Below, piece after piece: positions 20,570-21,071 of a stretch of DNA of 37,406 nt. The notes below the pieces were generated by a model. It saw only the letters and a program-made list of their open reading frames with translations, was not told where the DNA came from and did no database searches. The stretch covers positions 1 through 37,406 of the forward strand of contig JABMQY010000112.1 of NCBI GenBank assembly GCA_013202975.1, given 5' to 3'. Source of the stretch: Candidatus Saganbacteria bacterium. Lineage in GTDB: Bacteria > Margulisbacteria > WOR-1 > XYC2-FULL-46-14. Within the stretch, counting starts at the first letter, position 1; each line of letters starts with the position of its first letter. The position numbers and the translations under genes are program-made.

Positions 20570-20598
20570 TCCTCCGAAGCACGAAGTGCGAAGGGGGA
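20570..20598 (+). repeat. GAA-motif palindromic element B (left unit flanking GIY-YIG)
   Basis: TCCTCC-GAA-GCAC-GAA-GTGC-GAA-GGGGGA. Confidence 0.88.
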
Positions 20599-20640
20599 CG
20601 GAGAATTTTCCTTGAAAATTGATTTGAAATATGAAGAAGA

Positions 20641-20669
20641 CCTCCTAAGCTCCTAAGGAGAGAAGGAGG
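20641..20669 (+). repeat. Degenerate GAA-type hairpin B2 overlapping the GIY-YIG ribosome-binding site
   Basis: CCTCC-TAAG-CTCC-TAA-GGAG-AGAA-GGAGG; the 3' arm GGAGG is the SD for ATG 20674. Confidence 0.75.
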
Positions 20670-20673
20670 GATA

Positions 20674-20928
20674 ATGGCTAGAAATTATTTAGTTTATGTT
20701 TTGAGAAGTGAAAGAGACGGAAGATTTTACACTGGACTAACAGTAGATTTGGAAAAAAGAATTAGGGAACATCAAGAAGGCCTAAGTAAGTATACGAAGA
20801 ACAAAGGTCCTTGGAAATTAAAGTGGTACGGAGTTTTTTCTGATATACAATTGGCAGAAAAATTTGAAAGATATTTGAAAACAGGATCGGGAATTGCCTT
20901 TTGCAGAAAAAGACTTTTGAGGGTATAA
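20674..20928 (+). CDS. GIY-YIG nuclease family protein
   Basis: 84 aa; YLVYVLRSERDGRFYTGLTVDLEKRIREHQEG (VYVL...YTG), C-terminal AEKFERYLKTGSGIAFCRKRLL. Confidence 0.93.
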   Translation: MARNYLVYVLRSERDGRFYTGLTVDLEKRIREHQEGLSKYTKNKGPWKLKWYGVFSDIQLAEKFERYLKTGSGIAFCRKRLLRV

Positions 20929-20949
20929 TAAATTTTGCTGTAAGGAATA

Positions 20950-20998
20950 TCCTCCGAAGTTCTCCGTAGCTCTGAGCAGAGCGAAGAGCGTAGGAGGA
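20950..20998 (+). repeat. GAA-motif palindromic element C (elaborated; right unit flanking GIY-YIG)
   Basis: TCCTCC-GAAG...GTA-GCTCT-GAGC-AGAGC-GAA...GTA-GGAGGA, followed by CGGAGAATATTCCTGGAAAATTG, which matches the sequence after element B. Confidence 0.75.
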
Positions 20999-21040
20999 CG
21001 GAGAATATTCCTGGAAAATTGTTTAATTTATTGAAGAGAG

Positions 21041-21071
21041 GTCCTACGAAGCTCAGAGAGCGAAGTAGGAC
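21041..21071 (+). repeat. GAA-motif palindromic element D
   Basis: GTCCTAC-GAA-GCTC-AGA-GAGC-GAA-GTAGGAC, perfect stems. Confidence 0.92.

Follow-up and report, generated by a model that had tools for sequence, protein, structure and literature searches.

The window, a stretch of 37,406 nucleotides forming contig C109 of the 2.2-Mb genome assembly (139 contigs) of a Candidatus Saganbacteria bacterium, contains an intact tRNA-Phe gene followed on the same strand by a small GIY-YIG nuclease ORF, with hairpins and two repeat units arranged around the ORF (Table 1). The encoded protein matched PF01541 with 60.9 bits against a cut-off of 22.6, which places it in the GIY-YIG superfamily. Residues Y8, Y19, G21, R29, H33 and E65, representing the catalytic Y, the YxG, and the R, H and E of catalytic type, are present in the protein and conserved in 110 to 112 of 112 homologues; the catalytic residues of the 84-residue protein are, as judged from its sequence, intact. 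No Rfam intron match was obtained in the window and no group I intron core was found around the ORF; elsewhere in the same genome a group I intron core is present for a different GIY-YIG gene (L005).

The two composite repeat units reported around the ORF in a sequence-only reading of this DNA proved to be real. The paired stretch of both units is a 43-nt direct repeat of 86% identity with the copies 400 bp apart, and the 26-nt core had no further copy in the 2.2-Mb genome when up to 3 mismatches were allowed. TGAAGA and a second hairpin are found in each unit; the TGAAGA linker was also considered as a conserved motif of the element and was set aside since k-mer enrichment lists gave no confirmation. 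A strict hairpin scan, requiring CGWAG in both arms and a stem followed by an opposed GWA/GWA internal loop and an inner stem, returned six hairpins in the window against none in 20 shuffled windows, which excludes chance. Four of these CGWAG hairpins lie within 556 bp at the locus, and the same family recurs in the window at 22366-22403 and 23889-23917. The hairpin directly before the start codon gave no match in the scan.

Table 1. Features of the tRNA-Phe locus in the window.
Feature	Position	Strand	Evidence or remark
Possible displaced tRNA-Phe 5' remnant GCCGCGGTAG (tRNA nt 1-10)	20384..20393	+	weak
tRNA-Phe (GAA), intact, host RNA gene of the unit	20442..20516	+	ARAGORN; Rfam 71.6 bits
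Left CGWAG hairpin TTCTCCGAAGC..GCGTAGGAGAA (minus strand)	20516..20544	-	begins at the tRNA-Phe 3' end
Second CGWAG hairpin, first half of left unit	20570..20598	+	CGWAG scan; covariance model E=2.2e-7
26-nt core GGACGGAGAATWTTCCTKGAAAATTG, copy 1	20596..20621	+	genome-wide core search, direct-repeat comparison
Weaker CTAAG-type hairpin CCTCCTAAGCTCC..GAGAAGGAGG, directly before start codon	20641..20669	+	sequence
GIY-YIG nuclease ORF, 84 aa	20674..20928	+	PF01541 E=1.5e-16; 157 bp behind tRNA-Phe
Nested hairpin, right unit (CGWAG core 20960-20998)	20950..20998	+	scan; covariance model E=1.6e-10
26-nt core GGACGGAGAATWTTCCTKGAAAATTG, copy 2	20996..21021	+	genome-wide core search, direct-repeat comparison
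Right-end CGWAG hairpin	21042..21070	+	scan; in relatives abuts displaced tRNA 3' remnant
Putative tRNA-Phe 3' remnant CGGCA, 5 nt	21071..21075	+	junction as in relatives; alone not significant
199-aa gene, right flank of insertion	21112..21711	+	directly behind tRNA-Phe in relatives
211-aa conserved synteny gene	21698..22333	+	confirms locus orthology

Comparison with relatives revealed the history of the locus. The 211-aa gene product is 39-71% identical (blastp) to that of the gene behind tRNA-Phe in 18 relatives, and in approximately 18 relatives tRNA-Phe is followed by the 199-aa gene (where detectable), the 211-aa gene and a TPR gene with no GIY-YIG gene between them. In genome G001, a member of the same family, the orthologue of the 199-aa gene (40% identity, 1e-32) stands directly behind tRNA-Phe with nothing between; blastp also matched the 199-aa gene to the gene behind tRNA-Phe in G007 and others. 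These empty orthologous sites, which the sequence-only reading had proposed to look for, indicate that approximately 550 bp, from 20516 to 21070, is an insertion in the lineage of the window; the unit is thus an insertion behind tRNA-Phe. Location beside a conserved RNA gene and patchy presence with empty orthologous loci are traits of free-standing homing endonucleases, and an independent GIY-YIG insertion at tRNA-Phe was found in G023 (L049). The minimal mobile unit of the sequence-only reading stands in so far as the GIY-YIG gene and hairpins were inserted as one. That reading named tRNA-Phe in its heading and omitted it from the inference, though the unit sits on the tRNA 3' end; the tRNA gene is the missing key, and units in relatives displace part of that tRNA.

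The ends of the insertion were examined for displaced pieces of the tRNA. In the alignment with G001 the right hairpin is followed by CGGCAC, the end of the G001 tRNA-Phe plus one base, which agrees with a displaced 3' end, although a match of five or six bases is no proof by itself. G004 contains a nuclease-free version in which tRNA-Phe is followed by hairpins and then by the 3' remnant GCCCTGAGGCATT. Upstream of the tRNA in the window, the possible 5' remnant is an exact 10-nt tRNA prefix at a distance of 58 bp (control frequency 0.001) that overlaps a GTAG..CTAC hairpin stem, and the bases beyond do not align with the tRNA (p 0.6-0.7). A comparable check at the tRNA-Thr hairpin of the window gave p=0.046, a value on which no claim of a remnant is based. 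The tRNA-Phe gene itself is identical at 74 of 74 positions to that of G006, from another family, and 88% identical to that of G001 from its own family; the tRNA-Thr of the window shows the opposite, being closer to G001. From these sequence comparisons it is possible that tRNA-Phe was horizontally replaced, a single case.

Small GIY-YIG genes beside RNA genes proved to be a recurrent arrangement. Seven GIY-YIG matches were obtained in the genome that contains the window, six of them small stand-alone ORFs, each placed directly 3' of a tRNA, whole or in pieces. The intact neighbours are tRNA-Met, tRNA-Phe and tRNA-Asp, and the others are tRNA-Asn halves with a group I intron, tRNA-Ser fragments and, where one contig begins, the tail of a tRNA (by eye). 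The survey was extended to 57 genomes of the phylum, the genome under study included, which yielded 111 small GIY-YIG loci, related to one another so that counts are not fully independent. A full same-strand tRNA lies within 320 bp at 59 of the 111 small loci and an opposite-strand tRNA at one, and none of 21 control loci with long GIY-YIG ORFs (approximately 370 to 650 codons) has a tRNA. Five further small loci lie directly 3' of the gene for RNase P RNA, rnpB (L048, L060, L061, L068 and L071), and two loci, in two phyla, lie directly 3' of tmRNA (L022:3423-4240, Paceibacterota, and L091:903-1743). A scan of GTDB contigs with the single window protein recovered only two relatives. The nearest homologues in two other phyla stand behind tmRNA (Paceibacterota) and tRNA-Ser (an Alphaproteobacteria MAG). 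Collections of phage, plasmid and viral sequences yielded a single weak match, which has no tRNA nearby. At the end of contig C113 of the same genome (positions 1-400, L007), pieces of tRNA-Ser were observed to either side of a GIY-YIG gene; such tRNA/GIY-YIG units may break assemblies.

A maximum-likelihood tree of 112 proteins over 94 columns, in which many forks remain open, groups the proteins by the neighbouring RNA: Tyr, Pro, Leu, Glu, Gln/Asn and rnpB. The rnpB-adjacent proteins, from five genomes, form a separate clade with support of 100/98. Since protein clades follow the neighbouring RNA, the tree suggests that the GIY-YIG protein chooses the target RNA gene. The window protein belongs to a 13-member clade (support 99/92) that contains the hairpin loci L008, L026, L049, L082, L118 and L119 and the tmRNA loci L022 and L091. 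The hairpin loci of the clade lie at tRNA-Phe, Pro, Asp and Gln, and the clade also has loci at tRNA-Gly and tRNA-Ser. In the larger clade holding the window protein (63 rows, some with RNA neighbours judged from fragments or at contig ends), only L026 and L085 are without an adjoining whole or broken RNA gene.

Two arrangements of displaced RNA pieces were distinguished: type B, with a 5' tRNA fragment, the GIY-YIG gene and then the full tRNA, and type A, that of the window, with the full tRNA, the GIY-YIG gene and then a 3' fragment. With non-cognate tRNAs as controls, an exact cognate prefix of at least 11 nt was found upstream in 30 of 37 type B units versus 0.03% of controls, and a cognate suffix of at least 12 nt in 5 of 22 type A units versus 0.06% of controls; the long 3' remnant is absent in 17 of the 22 units with the tRNA upstream. 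In L049, L062, L082 and L118 the remnants, from 13 to 19 nt long, start at tRNA nt 59, 60, 63 or 64 and lie directly after the right hairpin or one base beyond, and in L049 the duplication extends into the tRNA trailer hairpin. No more than 3 nt separate the start of the left hairpin from the RNA 3' end in L006, L008, L049, L062, L082, L091, L118 and L119, and no more than 4 nt in L022. CGWAG hairpins occur at the tmRNA end in L022 and L091, and no RNA 3' remnant was found at the two cross-phylum loci or L091. CGWAG hairpins thus mark both junctions of the unit. The T-arm and acceptor end are common to tRNA and tmRNA and are where the remnants start, and we infer that this end of tRNA and tmRNA genes is the target.

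Several other rearranged tRNA sequences were observed. Displaced tRNA copies beside GIY-YIG genes of relatives are broken by single or double palindromes of 15-89 nt, often TCCCG..CGGGATCCCG..CGGGA (L070, L073, L077, L081, L090, L093, L103, L107, L110, L113 and others). Most of the palindromes are placed in a loop (D, anticodon, variable or T), and in many cases few or no bases of the tRNA have been lost; in a k-mer comparison CGGGATCCCG was near 11 units and far from units only once. A circularly permuted tRNA-Asn is present in contig C43 of the genome under study (L053:3683-4325), where the 3' half (3921-3958) precedes the 5' half (3964-4000), and again in G020 (L030:800-1363). Group I intron sequence flanks it on both sides with 50.3 and 34.4 bits, the second being below the Rfam gathering score, and an HNH-like ORF (by eye) lies upstream and a GIY-YIG ORF downstream. 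No other tRNA-Asn-like match was found in the genome under study; since the C43 halves are the only ones, they may constitute a natural permuted intron-exon tRNA gene.

Tandem tRNA copies at some loci (L092 and L114), together with the established role of tRNA 3' ends as classic integration sites, raise the alternative that tRNA genes are general hot spots of integration or duplication, with the GIY-YIG gene not the agent but carried along by a different integrase or by tandem duplication of tRNAs. We consider it very unlikely, as the GIY-YIG gene is the sole gene between the full tRNA and the remnant, a non-tRNA gene (rnpB) is also a neighbour, and protein clades track the target RNA as expected if the protein chooses it. 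The position of GIY-YIG genes on the strand of the RNA gene, and of a left hairpin beginning at the RNA 3' end, a place in which a trailer hairpin might aid processing, could also be read as signs of a host gene, settled and transcribed together with tRNA-Phe, that serves DNA repair or the upkeep of tRNA genes, with the hairpins as RNA-processing or terminator signals; UPF0213 proteins of this fold are moreover widespread. Displaced tRNA fragments, patchy presence at orthologous tRNA-Phe loci and the variety of RNA genes beside which a single genome carries copies argue against such a role, which is very improbable indeed.

The distribution of the hairpins was determined with a covariance model (R1), which gave 51 matches at E≤1 and 49 at E≤0.001 in the genome under study. 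Most of the matches lie in the gaps between protein genes, and several form inverted pairs with a spacing of 30-100 bp. Of 25 sites inspected, 4 have a tRNA (Asp, Ser, Arg or Thr) no more than 30 bp away, in addition to the left hairpin at tRNA-Phe. With approximately 49 scattered copies and these 4 of 25 sites near tRNA genes, the family is dispersed yet favors tRNA genes, and the part of the sequence-only reading that treated the hairpins as dedicated to the nuclease gene does not hold. Hairpins also occur in G001, a genome lacking any small GIY-YIG gene, and are therefore not exclusive to that gene. Their predicted enrichment near homologues was nonetheless borne out: 25 hairpins were found within 300 bp of homologues of the clade, over 99.8 kb scanned, against a background of 2 over 217 kb farther out and none over 67 kb of controls. 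CGWAG hairpins are present at 10 of 12 loci of the window-protein group (L062 counted) versus 3 of 99 others (P=3e-10), and also at both members of the clade from other phyla.

One hairpin site in the genome under study was observed apart from any GIY-YIG gene: at C97:2342-2440 (L198) a CGWAG hairpin lies within a displaced 5' tRNA-Arg copy, upstream of the intact tRNA-Arg. The left part is identical to the tRNA-Arg start at 12 of 13 nt, which none of 3000 shuffles reached, and the right part matches tRNA-Arg with p=0.004. This hairpin is a possible solo element.

Dispersed copies, inverted pairs and hairpins in G001 are features also expected of an independent REP/REPIN-like family moved by RAYT or another enzyme, in which case the GIY-YIG gene would merely share a neutral landing place behind tRNAs; there is one RAYT in the genome under study, and many GIY-YIG loci are without CGWAG hairpins. 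Across genomes the number of hairpins correlated with that of GIY-YIG genes with rho 0.48 (P=2e-4), within the class with rho 0.36 (P=0.05), and with that of RAYT genes weakly, with rho 0.26 (P=0.05), all three P values being optimistic since the genomes are related, and the GIY-YIG counts including long ORFs. RAYT is missing from the hairpin-rich genomes G007, G020, G023 and G055, and the RAYT locus of the genome under study (L021) has no CGWAG hairpin, where a cognate RAYT would be flanked by the same REP. On these grounds RAYT was rejected as the main mobiliser, and the comparison with RAYT-mobilised REP hairpins drawn in the sequence-only reading finds little support. The location of hairpins exactly at both unit junctions and the strong enrichment at one GIY-YIG clade, including its members in two other phyla, make an independent hairpin family unlikely.

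Overall, the stretch from 20516 to approximately 21070 is likely a small mobile unit at the tRNA 3' end, encoding a stand-alone GIY-YIG endonuclease of a clade that would target the T-arm/acceptor ends of tRNA and tmRNA genes. The nuclease would cut the RNA gene near the T-arm in a DNA copy without the unit. Recombination with unit-bearing DNA would then introduce the whole set, a new RNA 3' end followed by the nuclease gene between its left and right hairpins. The RNA gene would be kept whole and working while the old 3' end is pushed beyond the right hairpin, where it would decay; displaced old 3' ends are seen in five relatives. The hairpins may also spread as solo pieces without the nuclease, for which the G004 tRNA-Phe and the tRNA-Arg of the genome under study are candidate cases.

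Bacterial homing genes are mostly treated in terms of the introns, inteins or phages that carry them. A broader proposal, tentative and to our mind a little short of an even chance, is a class of bacterial mobile elements extending across phyla, in which small GIY-YIG nucleases specialised on essential structured-RNA genes (tRNA, tmRNA and rnpB) let the host survive by bringing a replacement RNA gene or end with them, in effect a natural cleave-and-rescue system with hairpin ends that also spread nuclease-free. A very common group of small proteins, annotated but unexplained, would thereby gain a likely role as selfish genes whose targets are the most conserved RNA genes and which spare the host by restoring the gene they attack. 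Such a class would account for the odd pieces of tRNA, and the hairpins, that surround tRNA genes of many uncultured bacteria. It would imply that tRNA genes are open to horizontal replacement, and would offer compact nucleases (approximately 84 aa) with targets predictable from their neighbours. A literature search, with most subscription papers and all bioRxiv preprints outside it, returned no report of GIY-YIG genes in chromosomes beside displaced ends of tRNA or rnpB; nor was the combination of tRNA, tmRNA and rnpB targets with hairpin borders, on a bacterial chromosome, found in the literature searched, which is not proof of novelty.

The locus shares features with several known systems. 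The hairpins resemble those of REP/REPIN-RAYT systems in being dispersed, imperfect, intergenic palindromes with inverted pairs, and differ in being linked weakly to RAYT and strongly to one GIY-YIG clade. The single-domain GIY-YIG protein UPF0213 (BH0048, PDB 1ZG2), labelled hypothetical in the PDB, is of the same fold family as the window protein (E=7e-9). Mitochondrial double-hairpin or repetitive hairpin-forming elements are described, in the portions of the reports available, as short, mobile, often double and dispersed (PMC7218506, PMC2800124). The double palindromes that interrupt tRNA remnants in loops of relatives are similar to these elements, which are organellar and for which the same portions report neither a linked GIY-YIG clade nor a T-arm junction (PMC7218506, PMC2800124). 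SegB of phages T4/T6 is a free-standing GIY-YIG homing endonuclease of the phage tRNA region that, according to the available part of the report, cuts inside tRNA genes, and microhomology between the 3' end of segB and the 5' end of the tRNA supports amplification of tRNA plus segB (PMC13096335). The likeness is that of a stand-alone GIY-YIG nuclease adjoining tRNA genes; SegB is a phage protein in tRNA clusters, whereas the present proteins are encoded in bacterial chromosomes and that of the window is very short at 84 aa, and that part of the report describes no displaced-end architecture, CGWAG hairpins or rnpB and tmRNA targets (PMC13096335). Mobile ORFs (mORFs) of fungal mitochondria bring a replacement 3' end of the gene, as in Allomyces atp6 and Glomus atp6, atp9, cox2 and nad3 (PMC3630166). 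Here too an endonuclease ORF (LAGLIDADG or GIY-YIG in the mORFs) lies in a gene, carries a replacement end and leaves the native end behind the ORF (PMC3630166). A replacement end with the displaced native end beyond the ORF was found in L049, L062, L082, L118 and L008; in the window the candidate for a displaced end is the 5-nt CGGCA at 21071-21075, aligned with the empty site of G001. The mORFs affect mitochondrial protein genes, and the units described here bacterial tRNA, tmRNA and rnpB genes with hairpins at the junctions (PMC3630166). The mechanism proposed here probably joins the idea of SegB, as far as the available part of that report describes it (PMC13096335), with that of the mORFs (PMC3630166).
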